Origin: Halobaculum gomorrense
GTDB lineage: Archaea > Halobacteriota > Halobacteria > Halobacteriales > Haloferacaceae
Direction: 5' to 3'
Length of the DNA stretch: 64,000 bases
Assembly: GCF_900129775.1 (NCBI RefSeq)
Contig: NZ_FQWV01000007.1
Coordinates: 62,001 to 126,000, forward strand
In this document: one piece after another, positions 49,476 to 64,000 of the stretch
Numbering within the stretch: position 1 is the stretch's first letter
Layout: each line of letters opens with the position of its first letter
Position numbers and translations under genes: made by a program
Notes under the pieces: model-generated
The model's database searches: none
What the model was told of the DNA's origin: nothing
What the model saw: only the letters and a program-made list of their open reading frames with translations

Positions 49476-49625
49476 TTTTCTGATTGCGTCCCGTTTTGAT
49501 CGCGTCACCCCGGCTATCGACCCCTCGGGCCAGCCCGGCGGCCGTCGCTGTCAGGTCTCCGGTCGGGCGTCGGCGGGACGCGGTTGTTGAAAAGGTTGAT
49601 AACCGGCAAGTCGTTCTTATCCGGT

Positions 49626-52427
49626 ATGTCGAGCGCGCTCGACGAGGACACGCGACAGACGCTGGCGGATGGCAGAGCCACCGCCGGCGCGATGCTTCGG
49701 TCCGCACAGAAGGACCTCCAGAAGGTGTTCCTCGTCTTCCTCGTCGGGTTCATGGGGACGTTCTACGCCCTCCGGTTATACGTCTGGGACTTCCTCAAAG
49801 GCGTCACGCGCGCGCAGCTCAGCGAGACGGTCGGCCAGCAGGTCGAGATCATCGCGCAGACCCCCTTCGACGTGATCCTCCTCCAGGCGAAGATCGGTCT
49901 GATCGTCGGGATCATCTTCGGGATCCCCCCGCTGTTGTACTTCTCGCGCGACGCCCTCCGGGAGCGCGGGGCGTGGCCACAGGCCCCCGTCGCCCGCTGG
50001 AAGCTCGCGCTCATCTTCGTGCTCGCCGTCGGCCTGTTCGCCGTCGGCGTCGCCTACGGCTACCTCGTGTTCTTCCCGTTCATGTTCGCATTCCTCGCGA
50101 ACAACGCCCTCTCGGCGGGTATCGAGCCCACGTACTCCATCGTGAAGTGGGCGCAGTTCATTGCGCTGCTCACCTTCTCGTTCGGGTTCGCCGCGCAGAT
50201 GCCGCTGGCGATCACGGCGCTGTCGTACGCCGAGATCGTCCCCTACGAGACGTTCCGCGACAAGTGGCGCCACGCGACCGTCGCGATCTTCGTCTTCGGC
50301 GCCGTCTTCTCCCCACCGGACCCGTTTACCCAGATCATGTGGGCCGCGCCGCTGCTGCTGCTGTACGGCGCGTCGCTGTACCTCGCGAAGATCGTCGTCA
50401 CCACCCGCCGCGGCTCCGAGCGGATCGATGTCGCGGCGGTCGCCCGGACCCGCTGGAACGTCCTCGCGGGCGTCGGCGTCGCCGTCGCGGCGGCCACGTA
50501 CCTCTTCCTCGCTCGCGGTGGTCCCGAGGCAGTCAACGGGGCGGTCTCGGGCCTGACGACCGTCCGGCTGCCGGTCGGGTTCGCGACCCCGGTCGCCGCC
50601 GCCGTCGCGCTCCTCGCCGGGGTGCTCGCGGTCGCCATCGCACTCGCGTACTTTGTGTACGCCGAACTCGACGCGGCGACCGCCGTCGTCGGCGAGGCCG
50701 GAGACCCCGACGCCATCGACCTGCTCGCGCTCGACGAGACGGGCGTGCGCGCCGCGCCGCCGGAAGCGTTCGAGGGGATGACCGAGTCCGAGGCGCTCGA
50801 AGCCGCCTCGACGGCCATGGACGCCGACAAACCGGGGAAGGCGCAGGCGATCCTCGACCGCTTCGACGAGGCCGCGACCGCGGGCGCGGCTGGGGACGAC
50901 GCCGCCGATGCCGCCCCCGCGAGCGACTCCGCCGGCGTCGCGTCGACCGGTCCGGCCCGCGACCTGTTCGCCGATGATGTCGGCCTCGTCGGGGCGCTCC
51001 GCCGCGGCGCCGGCTTCGTCGACTGGCGCGGCCGGTTCGGCTCGCTGTGGAACGTCCTCCTCGGTATCGCCGGCGTCGTCGCCGCCGCGGGGTACGTGCT
51101 CGTCGAGCGGCCCTCGCTCGCCGATTCAGTCCTCGTCGAGTACGGCACGAACGCGGACGCGATCCTCGGCACGCTCGGCGTGAGCGGCACCGTCGCGTTG
51201 CTCGCGTTCGTCGCAGGCGGGGTCGCGCTGGCGCTGCTGCTCGCCGGGCTCTTGGCGCTCTACTTCGCATATGCCGCGGGGACCGATCCCGCCGCCGTCG
51301 ACGTGGAGGCGCTCACGGCCGAGGACGTGCGCCGCGCTCCCGACGCGACGTTCGCGAGCGTCTCCGAGCGGCGCGCGAACTACCTCGCCGACCGCGCGGC
51401 CGCCGCCGGCGACTCCGAGAAGGCGCGGGCGATCCTCGACCGCTTCGACGACGTGCAGGCGGTCCGCGAGGCCGCCGCCGCGTCGACAGCCGACGGTTCA
51501 GCCGGCAGTGAGACCGGCGACTCCGCCGGTGGAGGCCCCTCGATCCCCGGCCTGTCCGGCGACGCCGGCGACCGCGCCTCCCGCGCCACCGGAACCTTCC
51601 TCGAGGGCCTCACCGACGGCGAGAGCGACGAGGACGACATCGGCGGCTACTACGACGACCTCGCGTTCATCGCCGGTTCGCTGCGCTCGCGGCTGTTCAT
51701 CCTGGTGAGCGTCTTCGGCGTCACGCTCGCGGGCGTGTTCGCGTTCCTCTATCTCGGCGGGATCGGGACGGTGAAGAACAACTTCGTGAACCGCATCCCC
51801 GAACAGATCGTCGGCCCCGACGCCGCCAACTTCGCCGTGATCGTCCTCCACCCGGTGGAGGCGCTCATCTTCGAGGTGAAGATCTCGACGATCGCCGGCG
51901 CCGTCGCGACCGTTCCGTTCGTGGCGTACTACGCGTGGCCCGCGCTGCGCGACCGCGGCTTCGTCCGCGGCCGCCGACAGGTCGTGTTCGGCTGGGTGGC
52001 CGCGCTCCTGGCCGGCCTGTTCGGCGGGCTCGCGCTCGGCTACACCGTCATCGCGCCGGCGGTCATCTCGTGGCTCGTCAGCGACGCGCTCCAGGCCGGG
52101 ATGGTGATCAGCTACCGCATCAGCGACTTCGCGTGGCTGGTGTTCTTCACCACGGTCGGGATCGGCTTCCTCGCGGATATCCCCGTGCTGATGGTGTTGC
52201 TCAACACAGCCGGCGTCTCGTATCAGGCGATGCGCTCGCGCTGGCGCGAGGTGACGATCGCGATCATGCTCTTGGCGGCGCTGCTCACGCCGGCGGACGT
52301 GTTCACGATGTTCCTCGTGACGATTCCGCTGATGGCCGCGTACGGGGTCGGCCTCCTCGTCCTGTGGGCGATGACGCTCGGCGGCCGGCGCAACCTCGCC
52401 GAACCGACGGTCGATCTGACACGCTGA
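49626..52427 (+). CDS. tatC2: Double-TatC protein (TatCt)
   Basis: A 933-residue fusion of two TatC domains, typical of Halobacteria. TatC-1 (about 20-265) includes QKDLQKVFLVFLVGFMGTFY and FSPPDPFTQIMWAAPLLLLY. Two linker modules follow, each with two extra helices and an acidic end containing KAQAILDRFDEA (about 400) or KARAILDRFDDV (about 605). TatC-2 (about 685-925) follows: AFIAGSLRSRLFILVSVFGV and LTPADVFTMFLVTIPLMAAYG. The linker duplication is visible by eye. It is divergent from tatC, and the two probably work together in the translocase. Confidence 0.95.
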   Translation: MSSALDEDTRQTLADGRATAGAMLRSAQKDLQKVFLVFLVGFMGTFYALRLYVWDFLKGVTRAQLSETVGQQVEIIAQTPFDVILLQAKIGLIVGIIFGIPPLLYFSRDALRERGAWPQAPVARWKLALIFVLAVGLFAVGVAYGYLVFFPFMFAFLANNALSAGIEPTYSIVKWAQFIALLTFSFGFAAQMPLAITALSYAEIVPYETFRDKWRHATVAIFVFGAVFSPPDPFTQIMWAAPLLLLYGASLYLAKIVVTTRRGSERIDVAAVARTRWNVLAGVGVAVAAATYLFLARGGPEAVNGAVSGLTTVRLPVGFATPVAAAVALLAGVLAVAIALAYFVYAELDAATAVVGEAGDPDAIDLLALDETGVRAAPPEAFEGMTESEALEAASTAMDADKPGKAQAILDRFDEAATAGAAGDDAADAAPASDSAGVASTGPARDLFADDVGLVGALRRGAGFVDWRGRFGSLWNVLLGIAGVVAAAGYVLVERPSLADSVLVEYGTNADAILGTLGVSGTVALLAFVAGGVALALLLAGLLALYFAYAAGTDPAAVDVEALTAEDVRRAPDATFASVSERRANYLADRAAAAGDSEKARAILDRFDDVQAVREAAAASTADGSAGSETGDSAGGGPSIPGLSGDAGDRASRATGTFLEGLTDGESDEDDIGGYYDDLAFIAGSLRSRLFILVSVFGVTLAGVFAFLYLGGIGTVKNNFVNRIPEQIVGPDAANFAVIVLHPVEALIFEVKISTIAGAVATVPFVAYYAWPALRDRGFVRGRRQVVFGWVAALLAGLFGGLALGYTVIAPAVISWLVSDALQAGMVISYRISDFAWLVFFTTVGIGFLADIPVLMVLLNTAGVSYQAMRSRWREVTIAIMLLAALLTPADVFTMFLVTIPLMAAYGVGLLVLWAMTLGGRRNLAEPTVDLTR

Positions 52428-55832: not shown

Positions 55833-57056
55833 CTACTGCGTCGGCGCGTCGGGGCTCCCGCCGGCCGCGCCGCCGTCCCCGTCGCCCGCGTCGAGGTCGA
55901 CCCGCTCGTGGATGGGCCCCTCGCGAGTCTTCAGGTGGCGCGGCTCCCGGTCGTTGGCGACCGCGAGCACCTCGGCGACGATGCTGTGTGCGATCTGGTA
56001 CGGCGACCCGCCGCCGAGGTCCAGTCCCACGGGCGTGTACAGCGGGTCCAACTCCGCCTCGGTGAACCGCCGCCCCTCGTCGGCGAACGCCTCCAGCATC
56101 TCCTCGAAGCGCTCGCGCGGCCCCATCAGCCCGACGTAGGCGACGCCGGCGTCCAGCAGCGTCTCCACGACGATGCGGTCGTCGACGAAGTTGTGGGTCA
56201 TCACCACCGCGTGAGTGCGGTCGTCGAGGCGGAGTCCGTCGGCTTCCTCGAGCCGTCCCGGGGAAGTCGTCACCGTCCGGTCGGCCTCGGGGAACCGCTC
56301 GGCCGGATCGACCGCGCCGCGGAAGCCGACCACCGTCACCCGGAAGTCGTTGCGCGCGGCGAGTTCGGTCACCGGGCCCACGTCGTGGCCCGTCCCGAAG
56401 ACGACCAGGTCCGTCGGCGCCGCGATGCCGTCGACGAACACCTCGACGGTCGTCTCCCCGTCGTCGAACACGAGCGTGTCGCCGCGGCCGCGCCCCGCGA
56501 GGTCGCCCGCCGCGCCGGTCAACCCCGCGGGCCAGTCGGTCGCGGGGTCGCCCGCGGGCGTCCGGAGGGTCCCGTCGTCCGGTCGGTAGTACGCCCGGTC
56601 GCCGCGCGCCAGCGGACCGTCGCCGCCGTCGAGGACGGTCGCCACCGCCACGTCGTGACCCTCGGCGAACGCGTCGACGGCGGGGCGGTACGTCTCCGTC
56701 AGCGGTTCCAGCAGCACGTCGATGACGCCGTTGCAGCCCACGCCGAGGCCCCAGATGTCCTCGTCGTCGTCCATGAGGTCGTAGGTGACGACCTCAGGGG
56801 TGCCGGTCTCGCGGATGCGCTCGGCGACGCTCGCGAGGTCCTCCTCCAGACAGCCCGCGGTGATCGCGCCGACGCCCTCGCCGTCGGGCGACAGCAGCAT
56901 CTTCGCCCCGGGTCGGCGGTAGGCGTTCCCCTCGACGCCGACGACCGTCGCGAGGACGTCCGGCGGGTCCGTCGCGCCCGCGGCGCGGTCGTCGAGGCTG
57001 TCTCTGATCGACTGTACGACTTCCGTCTCCGGTACGCTCCAGGTGCTTCCTGTCAT
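55833..57056 (-). CDS. XdhC/CoxI family molybdenum-enzyme maturation protein
   Basis: A 407-residue protein. XdhC_CoxI N-terminal domain: ATVVGVEGNAYRRPGAKMLL, GVGAITAGCLEEDLASVAER (conserved GCLE). The C-terminal Rossmann XdhC_C domain (about 240-380) starts VVFGTGHDVGPVTELAARND and has VMTHNFVDDRIVVETLLDAG, YVGLMGPRERFEEML. XdhC proteins bind molybdopterin cofactor and hand it to XdhC-dependent enzymes. Start at 57056, overlapping the previous gene by four bases. Last gene of the run. Confidence 0.9.
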   Translation of the reverse strand: MTGSTWSVPETEVVQSIRDSLDDRAAGATDPPDVLATVVGVEGNAYRRPGAKMLLSPDGEGVGAITAGCLEEDLASVAERIRETGTPEVVTYDLMDDDEDIWGLGVGCNGVIDVLLEPLTETYRPAVDAFAEGHDVAVATVLDGGDGPLARGDRAYYRPDDGTLRTPAGDPATDWPAGLTGAAGDLAGRGRGDTLVFDDGETTVEVFVDGIAAPTDLVVFGTGHDVGPVTELAARNDFRVTVVGFRGAVDPAERFPEADRTVTTSPGRLEEADGLRLDDRTHAVVMTHNFVDDRIVVETLLDAGVAYVGLMGPRERFEEMLEAFADEGRRFTEAELDPLYTPVGLDLGGGSPYQIAHSIVAEVLAVANDREPRHLKTREGPIHERVDLDAGDGDGGAAGGSPDAPTQ

Positions 57057-57985
57057 GGTTCGGGTGTCTCGTCGCTGTCGGGGACGTCGGCGCAGTCGCC
57101 GTGGTCGTCGGATCGCGTCGGGGTCGGTTCGGGGTCGAGGCCGAGGGCCGCGCCGGCGCCTTCGTCGCCGGCGGCGGCGACGACCCCCTTCCGCAGGCCG
57201 GCGTCGTGGAGGTCGGTCCCGCAGGCGCCGGCGCGGACGGCCGCCCGGACGCTCGCCGGGTCGTCGACGGCCGCGCCCGCGACGACGGCCGCGCCGGCCG
57301 CGAACAGCGGGTCGGGCACGACGGACGCCGTCGCCCCGACGACGACCACCGTCGCCTCGGGCGGCGCGGCCGCGAGGGCGTCGCCGAGCCCGCCGTACAC
57401 CAGCGTCGACCCGGTGACGAACACGACCGCCGCGCCGTCCATCGCCGTCGCCACCTCCTCGGGCGGATACGCCGACACCGTGACGCCCGGCGGCGTCTCG
57501 ACGCCCGCGGCGTCGACGGGGTCGCGCTCGACGACGCGCACCTCGACGTCCGCGAACTTCCGGAACGCCGGCCGGAACAGCCCCACCGTCGCGATGGCGT
57601 CGACCGCCGCCGGGAGCCGCTCCATCGGGTCGCCGTCGCGCCAGTCGACGAACGGCGCCGACAGCGCGTTCAGCGTCGCCACGCCGACCGCGCGGGCGAC
57701 GGTCGGGTCGCCGTCTGCGGGGGCCGTCCCCGTCGCCCACGACGCCAGCGTCTCGACGTCGGCGCCGTCGGCGTCGGGCGCGGCGCCGCGCGGGCGGTGC
57801 GCCAGCCCCGCGCGACGCGCGACGTCCCCGGTCGGCCCGTCGCCCCCGTCGCCGTCGGGGCCGTCGTCGCTGAGTTCGACGAAGACGGCCGCCTCCCCGA
57901 CGGTGACCCGGTCGACTGCGACGCCGTCGACGGCACCGCGCCGACGGAGGGCGTCGACCACCGCCCGCACGAGCGCGTCGCTCAC
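57053..57985 (-). CDS. DUF364 putative heavy-metal-chelation protein
   Basis: A 310-residue protein with a GTG start. The N-terminal part (about 1-150) has a DUF4213-like pattern (ALVRAVVDALRRRGAVDGVA, AVGVATLNALSAPFVDWRDG). The C-terminal DUF364 domain (about 185-270) reads VVFVTGSTLVYGGLGDALAA, VVVVGATASVVPDPLFAAGA, then VRAGACGTDLHDAGLRKGVV. The family name rests on structure prediction and weak metal-binding evidence. It overlaps both neighbours and lies inside the CO dehydrogenase maturation operon, a setting that suggests a role in the enzyme's Cu or Mo site. Confidence 0.75.
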   Translation of the reverse strand: MSDALVRAVVDALRRRGAVDGVAVDRVTVGEAAVFVELSDDGPDGDGGDGPTGDVARRAGLAHRPRGAAPDADGADVETLASWATGTAPADGDPTVARAVGVATLNALSAPFVDWRDGDPMERLPAAVDAIATVGLFRPAFRKFADVEVRVVERDPVDAAGVETPPGVTVSAYPPEEVATAMDGAAVVFVTGSTLVYGGLGDALAAAPPEATVVVVGATASVVPDPLFAAGAAVVAGAAVDDPASVRAAVRAGACGTDLHDAGLRKGVVAAAGDEGAGAALGLDPEPTPTRSDDHGDCADVPDSDETPEP

Positions 57986-59382
57986 GCCCGATCACCCCCG
58001 TCGCTCGCCCGCCGGCGCGGGTCGTGTCGATAGCCCACCGGTCCGCTCAGTCCGCGGCGTTCGATCTGGCGGGCGGCGGCCGCCAGGTCCTCGGGGCCCG
58101 CGAAGCCGAACAGCGCGTCGACGTACGGTTCACACGCCGCCATCCCGCGCGAACGCGGTTCGAACGACGGCGACACCGCGAGGGGGTTGAGCCAGACGAC
58201 GGCGGCCGCGCGCTCGGCGAGCCAGGTGATGCCGCGGTCGAGCAGGTCGGGGTCGCCCACGTCGAGGCCGTCGCTGACGACCACGACGACGGTTCGGCGG
58301 TCGACTGCGTCGGGGTGCTCGCGCCTGAGGGTCTCCAGCGCGGCGCCGATCTCCGTCCCGCCGCCCCATCGGATCTCCGCCTCTCGGAGCGCGGCGGCGG
58401 GGTCGCCGCCGGCGCGGGCGAACGCCGCGGTCGCGTCGGCCAACTCGGTGTCGAACAGGAACACCCGGGCGTCCCGCGCGGCCGCCGAGACCGCGTCGGC
58501 GACCGACAGGAGGGCGTTCCGGTCGGTCGTGTCCAGCACCGACCCGCTCACGTCGACCAGCAGGCAACAGCGCAACTCCGTCTCCGTCGCGGTCGTCGCC
58601 GGCAGGTCCACCGGCGCCCCGCCGGTGGCGAGACTCGACCGGAGCGCCCGCCGGGCGTCGACCTGTGCGCCGGTCGGCGACGGCCGCCGCCGCCGTCCGG
58701 ATCGGGCGGCGAGCGCGTCGACGAACCGCTCGACTGCGGCCCGCCCGTCGCGCGTCGTCGCCGGTCGCCCCTCGACGGCCTCCCCGCCGGAGACGGCGCT
58801 GGCGCGACGCCGGTCGTGCTCGCCGTCGTCGGTGGCGCGCTCGCCCGTCGCCCGGCGGCGGCCGGTCGGGATGCGCACCTCCGCCGGCGGGCCGTCGTCG
58901 TCCCCGGAGAGGTCCGGCGCCTCCGCGCCCTCGAGCGTGTCCGCGTCGGCTCCGTCGCTGGGTTCGACGGCGTCTGGCGGGTCGTCCTCGTCGTCGCCGT
59001 CGGCGGCGTCCGCCTCCGGTCCGTCGTGGTCGGTGGCGACCGCGGACAGCCCGGAGCGCAGGCGGTGCCAGAAGGTGGGGAACGCCTCGTCGAAGGCGTC
59101 GCCGTCGTCGACCGCGGACAGCAGCGACGCGCGCAGGGCGGCCGCCGCGCGGTCGCGGTCGGAGAGGCCGACAACCGACAGCGCGCGGGCGGCCGCGAGC
59201 GTCCCGCTTGGGGGCACGTCGACGCCATCGCGGCGGAGCACGGCCGCGAGCCTGACCAGTTCGATCAGGACGTGCCGCCGCGCGGCCCGAAAGTCCGGGA
59301 CGCCGTCGCCGCCGATCGCCGCGGGCGCGCCCGTCTCGGCGGGGGGCTCCTCCGCCGCGGGCACGTCGGTCCGGTCGGTCAT
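57982..59382 (-). CDS. coxE: VWA-domain protein, CoxE type
   Basis: A 466-residue protein. The N-terminal helical CoxE domain (about 25-115: RHVLIELVRLAAVLRRDGVD) precedes a long acidic/polar linker (about 120-225). The von Willebrand A domain (about 265-450) has the MIDAS motif DVSGS (near residue 275: CCLLVDVSGSVLD), TEIGAALETLRREH and VVVVVSDGLDVGDPD. CoxE is needed with CoxD to activate CO dehydrogenase in Oligotropha. It starts one base from the coxD stop and overlaps the DUF364 gene. Confidence 0.9.
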   Translation of the reverse strand: MTDRTDVPAAEEPPAETGAPAAIGGDGVPDFRAARRHVLIELVRLAAVLRRDGVDVPPSGTLAAARALSVVGLSDRDRAAAALRASLLSAVDDGDAFDEAFPTFWHRLRSGLSAVATDHDGPEADAADGDDEDDPPDAVEPSDGADADTLEGAEAPDLSGDDDGPPAEVRIPTGRRRATGERATDDGEHDRRRASAVSGGEAVEGRPATTRDGRAAVERFVDALAARSGRRRRPSPTGAQVDARRALRSSLATGGAPVDLPATTATETELRCCLLVDVSGSVLDTTDRNALLSVADAVSAAARDARVFLFDTELADATAAFARAGGDPAAALREAEIRWGGGTEIGAALETLRREHPDAVDRRTVVVVVSDGLDVGDPDLLDRGITWLAERAAAVVWLNPLAVSPSFEPRSRGMAACEPYVDALFGFAGPEDLAAAARQIERRGLSGPVGYRHDPRRRASDGGDRA

Positions 59383-59383
59383 C

Positions 59384-60415
59384 TCACTCCGCCGGTCGCT
59401 CGGCGGCGACCTGGTCGGGGTCCGCGTCGGCCGCGGCCGCCCGCAGCGCCTCCAGCAGGTCGGTGTCGACGTGGTCGACGTCCTCGACCTCCTTGAGCAG
59501 GCAGCCGATGGTGCGTTCGATCTCCTCGGGGGTCAGCGGGTCGTGTTCCTCCCCGTCGTCCTCGTCGTGGCGGAGGTGCGCGACCGCCCGCGCCCAGTCG
59601 AGCGTCTCGGCGACGCCAGGGCGCTTCAGGAACGCCTCCTCGCGGAGGCGGGCGACGACGGCGCACACCTCCGCGGCGACGGCGGCGTCCAACTCCGGCA
59701 CCTTCCGGCGGACGATCTCGTACTCCGTCCGGAACGACGGCGGCCGGACGTTGAGGTACAGACAGCGCCGCTTGAGCGCGTCGCTCAGCCCGCGCGTCCG
59801 GTTCGAGGTGAGGACAACGACCGGCGTCCGGTCGGCCGAGACGGTGCCCAGTTCGGGGATCGACACCTGGAAGTCCGACAGCAGTTCGAGCAGGAACGCC
59901 TCGAACTCCTCGTCGGCGCGGTCGATCTCGTCGATGAGCAACACCGGCGGCGTCTCGCCGTCGGTCCGCAGCGCCCGCAGCAGCGGCCGCTCCAGCAGGT
60001 ACTCCTCCGCGAACACCGACCCCTCCCGGTCCGTCGCGGACTCGCCCGCCGCCCCGTTCTCGGCCGGGGATGGCGTGTCGCCGGGCGGTGTGCTTGCCCC
60101 GACGCTGCCCTCGTCGGCCTGCACCGCGAGCAACTGCTTCGTGTAGTTCCACTCGTAGAGGGCGTTCTCGGCGGTGAGCCCCTCGTAACACTGCAGGCGG
60201 ATGAGGTCGGCGTCGAACGCCGTCGCCAACACCTTCGCGAGTTCGGTCTTGCCGCTGCCGGGCGGCCCCTCGATCAGCAGCGGACGCTCGAGCCGCAGGG
60301 CGAGGTGGACCGTCGTGACCGTGCGGTCGTCGGCGACGTAGTCGGCCGCCTCGAACCGCTCGGCGAGGTCGGCATCGGTGACCCGGGCGAACGGGTCGTC
60401 CGCGTCCCGGGTCAT
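59384..60415 (-). CDS. coxD: MoxR-family AAA+ ATPase, CoxD type
   Basis: A 343-residue ATPase. Walker A is GPPGSGKTELAK (50-57), Walker B is PVLLIDEIDRADEEFEAFLL and sensor 1 is VVLTSNRTRGLSDALKRRC. A disordered insert (about 105-135: GASTPPGDTPSPAENG...) interrupts the core. CoxD is a chaperone-like ATPase needed for sulfur insertion at the Mo-Cu centre of CO dehydrogenase. It overlaps the preceding gene by four bases. Confidence 0.92.
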   Translation of the reverse strand: MTRDADDPFARVTDADLAERFEAADYVADDRTVTTVHLALRLERPLLIEGPPGSGKTELAKVLATAFDADLIRLQCYEGLTAENALYEWNYTKQLLAVQADEGSVGASTPPGDTPSPAENGAAGESATDREGSVFAEEYLLERPLLRALRTDGETPPVLLIDEIDRADEEFEAFLLELLSDFQVSIPELGTVSADRTPVVVLTSNRTRGLSDALKRRCLYLNVRPPSFRTEYEIVRRKVPELDAAVAAEVCAVVARLREEAFLKRPGVAETLDWARAVAHLRHDEDDGEEHDPLTPEEIERTIGCLLKEVEDVDHVDTDLLEALRAAAADADPDQVAAERPAE

Positions 60416-61569
60416 CTCGTGGCCGCGCCCTCCGCGTCGAGGTACGACGACGGTTCCGCCGCGAACGACTCCGCACAGCCGCCGCAGCAGAAGTGGTACG
60501 TCTCGCCGTCGTGCTCGACGCTGTGGGCCGTCTCGGTCGGGTTGACGGTCATCCCGCAGACCGGGTCGATCGCCTCCTCGGGGGCCTCGTCGGGGCCCTC
60601 CGCGGCGGCGTCCTCGGGGGCGGCCGCGTCGACCGCGGTCCCCCCGGCGTCGTCGGTCGAGTCGCCGGACGCGGACGGGTCGGCCGCCTCGTCCGCGCGC
60701 TCGCCGCCCGCGACGCGGGGCGCGTCGCCCCGGCCGCGGCGCTGGTCGACGACCTCCGCGAGGACGCTGACGGCGATCTCGGCGGGCGTGTACGCCTCGA
60801 CGTCGACGCCGGCGGGGTTCGTCACCGCCGCGGCGACGGCGTCGGGGTCGCGCTCGGCCAGTGCCGCGGCGGTGTCGACCACCTCCTCGGCGCGCGTGGC
60901 GCTGGCGATCAGGCCGACGTACGTCGCGTCCGCGAGCACGCCCGCGGCGACGCCGCTGGCGTCGAACGACCCCATCGTCGCGACGACGACCAGCGGGTCG
61001 TGGCCGAGCGCGCTCGCGACGGTCGCCGGGTCGGTCTCGGTCAGGAGTTCGACGCCGTCGGGGAGGGCCGCCGCTTCCCCCGTGGGGTCGACGACGACCA
61101 CGTCGACGGCGAGTTCGCCCGCCAACCGCGCGAGGGCGTGCGCCACCGGCGACCCGCCGACGATCACCAGTTCGGGTCGGGGGTTCACCGGCTCGATGAA
61201 CAGTTCCAGCACGCCCTCGCTGTGGCACGTCATCGGGAACGCCTCCAGTCCCGGCCGGTCGACCGTGTCCGGCTCGGGCGCGATGCCGATCAGCCGCGGC
61301 CGCCCGTCGTCGATGGCCTCGCGGGCCTGCGTCGTGGCGATGGTCTGGGCGCAGGCGGCGCCGCCGATCCACCCGTGGAGGTCGCCCTCGCGGGTGACGA
61401 CGCCGCGGTCGCCGACGTTGGCCGACACCGGCGGCTCGCGCCGGACGACCGTCACGCGGGCGTACGGCTCGCCGGCGGCGGCCAGGTCGCGCTCCACGGC
61501 GGTCACGTCGCCGTCGGCGTCGGCGGGGCGGGCGGTCACGGTCGGTTCCTCGTCGGTGTCGCGTGTCAT
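60412..61569 (-). CDS. XdhC/CoxF-type protein fused to a C-terminal YHS metal-binding domain
   Basis: A 385-residue protein. The N-terminal part (about 25-115) is CoxF-like, with GGAACAQTIATTQAREAIDD in place of the usual GGGCLE and a MTCHSEGVLELFIEPVNPRP segment with a cysteine. The Rossmann XdhC_C domain (about 120-250: ELVIVGGSPVAHALARLAGE) follows, then a low-complexity acidic linker. A C-terminal YHS domain (about 334-380) has DPVCGMTVN, the Cys cluster FCCGGC and FAAEPSSYL. YHS domains bind copper or other soft metals. CoxF is needed in Oligotropha for insertion of copper into CODH. The fusion is unusual to me. Confidence 0.88.
   Translation of the reverse strand: MTRDTDEEPTVTARPADADGDVTAVERDLAAAGEPYARVTVVRREPPVSANVGDRGVVTREGDLHGWIGGAACAQTIATTQAREAIDDGRPRLIGIAPEPDTVDRPGLEAFPMTCHSEGVLELFIEPVNPRPELVIVGGSPVAHALARLAGELAVDVVVVDPTGEAAALPDGVELLTETDPATVASALGHDPLVVVATMGSFDASGVAAGVLADATYVGLIASATRAEEVVDTAAALAERDPDAVAAAVTNPAGVDVEAYTPAEIAVSVLAEVVDQRRGRGDAPRVAGGERADEAADPSASGDSTDDAGGTAVDAAAPEDAAAEGPDEAPEEAIDPVCGMTVNPTETAHSVEHDGETYHFCCGGCAESFAAEPSSYLDAEGAATR

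Positions 61570-61739: not shown

Positions 61740-64000
<2,261 letters not shown>

Follow-up and report, generated by a model that had tools for sequence, protein, structure and literature searches.

A YHS domain fused to CoxF-type XdhC proteins beside form I CO dehydrogenase genes in archaea and bacteria: a candidate copper-loading module

The route of copper to the Mo-S-Cu centre of aerobic CO dehydrogenase (CODH) is currently described by a model built on a single alphaproteobacterium and on guesses from motifs. In Oligotropha, coxF mutants produce folded CODH that lacks copper, and CoxD is required for the sulfuration of molybdenum (PMC4240915). The stretch of DNA analysed here (the window, 64,000 nucleotides from Halobaculum gomorrense) contains a cox operon in which an XdhC protein carries an additional C-terminal YHS domain. 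This raises the question of which XdhC protein is concerned, how widely the join is kept and what the YHS domain may contribute to CODH.

The XdhC-YHS protein and its operon

The xdhC-yhs gene is located on the minus strand of the window (60412..61569) and forms an intact reading frame from the ATG at 61567-61569 to the TGA at 60412-60414, which encodes 385 amino acids. Membership of the N-terminal part in the XdhC/CoxI family is given by two Pfam domains: XdhC_CoxI (PF02625, residues 30-94, 61288..61482) scores 43.0 bits at a cut-off of 24.3, and the Rossmann domain XdhC_C (PF13478, residues 134-273, 60751..61170) 74.6 bits at a cut-off of 29.7. In agreement with this, the best structural matches of the whole model in Foldseek were the XdhC-like entries 2we7/2we8, which also support the XdhC_C assignment. 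XdhC proper (xanthine dehydrogenase factor) is a different assignment, for which the protein reaches 41.2 bits versus an equivalog cut-off of 161.6 (TIGR02964).

The C-terminal part, which the original prediction had taken for a YHS domain from its DPVCGM and FCCGGC motifs, was indeed detected as such by Pfam (PF04945, residues 334-379, 60433..60570) with an E value of 1.6e-13 and 50.9 bits versus a cut-off of 30.3. The TRASH_HVO_1752_C profile was marginally above its cut-off (27.5 versus 27). D335 opens the domain within DPVCGM and FCCGGC occupies residues 360-365, such that D335, C338, C361 and C365, the putative metal ligands, reproduce the YHS spacing D/C-x2-C-x22-C-x3-C. This is the sole YHS match in the whole genome (3.2 Mb, completeness 99.9). 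The HMA domain (PF00403) of CopZ/Atx1-type copper chaperones is absent from the Pfam domains of XdhC-YHS, and the HMA proteins of the genome are encoded elsewhere.

AlphaFold2 predicted the XdhC and YHS parts mostly with confidence and, between them, about 50 disordered residues. This linker (residues 279-333, 60571..60735) has a pLDDT of about 40-50 and is acidic, with 16 D/E and 3 K/R. Long acidic linkers are common to the haloarchaeal proteins, while those of Chloroflexota are often shorter (median of 54 versus 24 residues, by a rough measure). A chance join or frame artefact can be rejected as the source of the fusion, since many independent genomes have kept the same join. Together with the Pfam matches this confirms the fused protein that had been proposed at 60412-61569.

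Oligotropha possesses two XdhC proteins, CoxF and CoxI (PMC2997495). The PMTCHSEG motif of XdhC-YHS, which contains the C-H-S-E-G signature (residues 115-119, 61213..61227), aligned opposite M107CPSHGTM, the proposed copper site of Oligotropha CoxF (PMC4240915); at this site both proteins have a C-x-S-x-G motif (MTCHSEG versus NMCPSHG). In a tree of the XdhC cores, CoxF of strain OM5 was placed inside the group holding the fusions and CoxI outside, with a support of 92 for the split and long outgroup branches. Furthermore, XdhC-YHS is encoded together with form I coxL, CoxD and CoxE. Motif alignment, grouping with OM5 CoxF and the form I operon thus support the predicted assignment of the window protein as a CoxF-type XdhC.

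The gene order on the minus strand is coxG-coxM-coxS-coxL-xdhC/yhs-moxR(coxD)-coxE-DUF364-xdhC2, with moeA and a mobA-like gene in divergent orientation upstream of the operon. The coxL gene (61740..63998, 5' end beyond the window) ends 170 nt before the start of xdhC-yhs and encodes a form I large subunit according to its AYRCSFR motif and a TIGR02416 score of 1236.8 bits (cut-off 991). The cysteine of this motif ligates copper in O. carboxidovorans CODH (VAYRCSFR; PMC4240915). On the other side, the ATG of the CoxD-like MoxR-type AAA+ ATPase gene (59384..60415) overlaps the xdhC-yhs stop codon (ATGA). It is followed by genes for a VWA_CoxE protein (CoxE, 57982..59382) and a putative heavy-metal chelation protein (DUF364/DUF4213, 57053..57985), both assigned by Pfam, and for a second XdhC (55833..57056), also recognized by Pfam, which is CoxI-type according to its VGCNG motif and has no YHS domain. 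As this second XdhC closes the operon, two XdhC proteins would serve one CODH, as CoxF and CoxI do in Oligotropha. The DUF364/DUF4213 gene was present in the haloarchaeal cox operon of nearly all relatives examined, and its product could be another metal factor. Elsewhere in the window (49584-52427) a large membrane protein of 947 amino acids is encoded, in which two TatC-type halves and an acidic joining region were recognized by eye.

Occurrence with form I CODH, ligand conservation and history

Form I coxL genes were called using the cut-off of TIGR02416, which all haloarchaeal positives passed with more than 1200 bits, the next match being at 742. Among 195 genomes of Halobacteria form I coxL was found in 19. 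The full XdhC-YHS model matched beside coxL in 18 of these, whereas the other 176 genomes gave no match. In the nineteenth, the XdhC part and a portion of the linker are left while the YHS domain is lost; a YHS domain hidden by a frameshift was rejected there, since the three reading frames of the stretch contained none. A hand count of the further XdhC matches in these haloarchaeal genomes gave about 88, all free of YHS. For the bacteria the counts by phylum rest on samples of genomes from Chloroflexota, Acidobacteriota, Bacillota, Deinococcota and Pseudomonadota. Form I coxL exceeded the cut-off in 54 of 251 Chloroflexota genomes, two of which have it at a contig end, and in all 52 that could be checked the fusion was found with the full cysteine set. 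XdhC-YHS was also obtained from Acidobacteriota (199 genomes), Bacillota (250) and Deinococcota (111). Of 349 Pseudomonadota genomes, 13 encode CoxF-type proteins, including the Afipia genome used as centre, and a YHS domain was present in one. An XdhC-YHS unique to the window or to haloarchaea is thereby rejected; the fusion is not rare but the usual form in haloarchaea and Chloroflexota.

The linkage to CODH was close. On the same strand and within 3 kb, coxL was found for 83 of 86 distinct intact fusions. The other three are encoded on short contigs from which coxL is missing; a CoxE-like gene is present on two of these contigs and a MoxR-like gene on one. Therefore, among the 86, no fusion was found that serves an enzyme other than CODH, although occurrence outside CODH operons had been named in the original prediction as evidence that would speak against it. 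A stand-alone YHS gene that could substitute for the fusion was not found in the YHS-less cox locus stretches examined. In one Chloroflexota genome XdhC-YHS is encoded twice, once beside coxL and once on a short contig with coxE-like and coxI-like genes. Natronorubrum bangense has apparently the same cox cluster on the chromosome and on a megaplasmid, with identical fusion tail and gene order. At five haloarchaeal loci, permease-like membrane proteins have YHS domains, one or two each, in internal or terminal position and with DP[VT]CGM and FCS..C motifs.

Conservation of the ligands was determined from alignment columns over 104 distinct tails. The D/C/C/C set is kept in all haloarchaeal (24/24), Chloroflexota (49/49), Acidobacteriota (4/4) and Bacillota (4/4) tails. 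C365 is present in 104 of 104, C338 and C361 in 86 each, and the exceptions are all from Deinococcota. In that phylum C338 and C361 are gone in 18 of 22 distinct tails, all 18 of which keep C362-x2-C365. The CxxC remaining in these degenerate YHS-like tails could still bind Cu(I). In the cox cluster of Deinococcus AJ005, a gene for a putative 2OG-Fe(II) oxygenase (PF13759; L048:4315-4986) lies between coxG and the XdhC gene with the degenerate YHS.

In the XdhC-core tree the haloarchaeal fusions form one clade (support 99), the YHS-less Pseudomonadota are placed among fusions, and the degenerate Deinococcota form two separate groups, each adjoined by intact relatives. This pattern suggests one old gain of YHS in CoxF, followed by its loss from most Pseudomonadota (Oligotropha among them) and, in single cases, from other lineages, and by decay in Deinococcota. 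The tree is a quick one with weakly supported deep branches, such that we infer the number and direction of these events. The degenerate Deinococcota and the YHS-less Pseudomonadota show that some lineages can do without the canonical site. Somewhat speculatively, and leaning slightly against it ourselves, we also consider that the CoxF-borne YHS may be the original copper-loading module of Mo-Cu CODH common to archaea and bacteria, in which case Oligotropha would be a derived exception that lost YHS and uses a substitute copper route.

A possible copper route and alternative explanations

The reading we favour, with moderate confidence, is that XdhC-YHS is a CoxF with a tethered YHS/TRASH copper-binding module that helps to load copper into CODH. 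A YHS domain fused to the adenylyl cyclase of Mycobacterium phlei (D178/C181/C204/C208) is needed for activation of this enzyme by 1-10 μM Cu2+, while none of the further transition metals tested had this effect (PMC4626032). What speaks against our reading is that YHS is also found in proteins without a known role in copper handling, such as toluene-4-hydroxylase, whose crystal showed no metal (PMC4626032). Taken together, the Cu2+ response conferred by the YHS domain of the cyclase and the phenotype of the coxF mutants make it likely that the YHS domain holds copper for insertion by CoxF; copper binding and transfer by the YHS domain of XdhC-YHS itself we infer.

For such a process the YHS domain would bind copper via D335, C338, C361 and C365. 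The flexible linker would act as a tether with which the domain may reach either the C-H-S-E-G site of CoxF or the entrance of apo-CODH, such that it would pass its copper either to the C115 motif or directly to CODH. Copper would be transferred to the Mo-SH centre once the MoxR/CoxD ATPase has carried out the sulfuration, CoxE being a partner. The likely chain would thus lead from the copper pool via YHS and the C115 motif of CoxF to the Cys-Cu-S-Mo site of CoxL. In lineages without YHS, the NMCPS motif of CoxF itself or another donor would take over. Delivery is favoured by the near-exclusive pairing with form I coxL and by the absence of YHS from the second XdhC of the operon. A universal need is contradicted by OM5 CoxF, which works without YHS, by the one haloarchaeon without YHS and by the loss of C338 and C361 in most Deinococcota.

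The strongest alternative is a copper sensor, since the fused YHS domain of the M. phlei cyclase behaves in this way (PMC4626032). Here, YHS would read copper and thereby turn CoxF or the maturation of CODH on or off, and would not donate its own metal ion. The ligand spacing, which is the same as in the cyclase, and the flexible tether in the AlphaFold2 model agree with such a role. The exclusive pairing with a copper enzyme, however, fits delivery as well, and CoxF has no known activity that could be switched; we regard a sensor as unlikely.

Next in line is a structural role, in which YHS binds zinc, like the TRASH-type zinc ribbons of eL24, and docks CoxF onto CoxL, CoxD or CoxE. With the YHS model alone, Foldseek returned no match to E 0.001, and the top entries were the YHS domain of phenol hydroxylase, also matched in sequence (E 1.6e-06), and zinc-ribbon-like eL24 TRASH folds. 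While these neighbours and the persistence of the domain in Deinococcota despite lost ligands speak for docking, the ligands are strongly conserved elsewhere and YHS pairs only with the copper enzyme and not with other XdhC clients; we regard docking as improbable. A relay in which the YHS cysteines carry persulfide for Mo-centre sulfuration is very improbable: XdhC proteins do serve Moco sulfuration (PMC2997495) and C362-C365 is kept in Deinococcota without the metal set, but XdhC of other Mo-S enzymes lack YHS, the D-C-C-C set has the pattern of a metal site and the C362 column is not invariant (78/104 tails).

That archaea and several phyla of bacteria have retained the fusion with a copper enzyme makes the putative copper module a concrete, mutable candidate site and the copper route a directly testable question. 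It also means that the experimental system, Oligotropha, is without a part that many other CO oxidizers have. When form I CODH of Chloroflexota or haloarchaea is to be made in another host, adding the YHS-bearing CoxF suggests itself.

Comparison with known systems

The original prediction knew of no described XdhC-YHS fusion. Likewise, our literature search, with most subscription journals outside its coverage, found neither CoxF with YHS nor XdhC with 'YHS domain'; the architecture may be contained in domain databases. Database records call the fusion proteins 'XdhC family protein', and the available part of a report on Thermogemmatispora gives its cox genes as coxMSLIG with the metal domain unmentioned (PMC6776052). 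What we regard as new is that a CoxF bears an extra metal domain and that this domain is conserved widely; the CoxF and YHS families themselves are known.

CoxF of OM5 (Oligotropha/Afipia carboxidovorans, WP_013913733.1, plasmid pHCG3) shares with XdhC-YHS the XdhC_CoxI and XdhC_C domains, the C-x-S-x-G motif, the form I cox operon and the tree group. It differs in its length of 280 amino acids without a YHS domain and in a gene order of L-D-E-F, while in the window xdhC-yhs is located between L and D. OM5 CoxF is also the one member for which a requirement for copper in CODH is known (PMC4240915). The XdhC of Thermomicrobium roseum (WP_143714800.1) has the same architecture with PMTCHSEG and DPVCGM and is encoded directly after form I coxL; this organism oxidizes CO (PMC2615216, PMC6776052). 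At about 40% identity, this bacterial protein has a short linker and is annotated just as XdhC family protein. The M. phlei adenylyl cyclase (PMC4626032) likewise carries a C-terminal fused YHS domain with D-x2-C-x22-C-x3-C; here, however, the partner is a cyclase and the domain a Cu2+-responsive regulator. The XdhC-like protein of M. smegmatis (PDB 2we7/2we8) shares the XdhC fold but has no YHS domain and is not CODH-linked in the present evidence.
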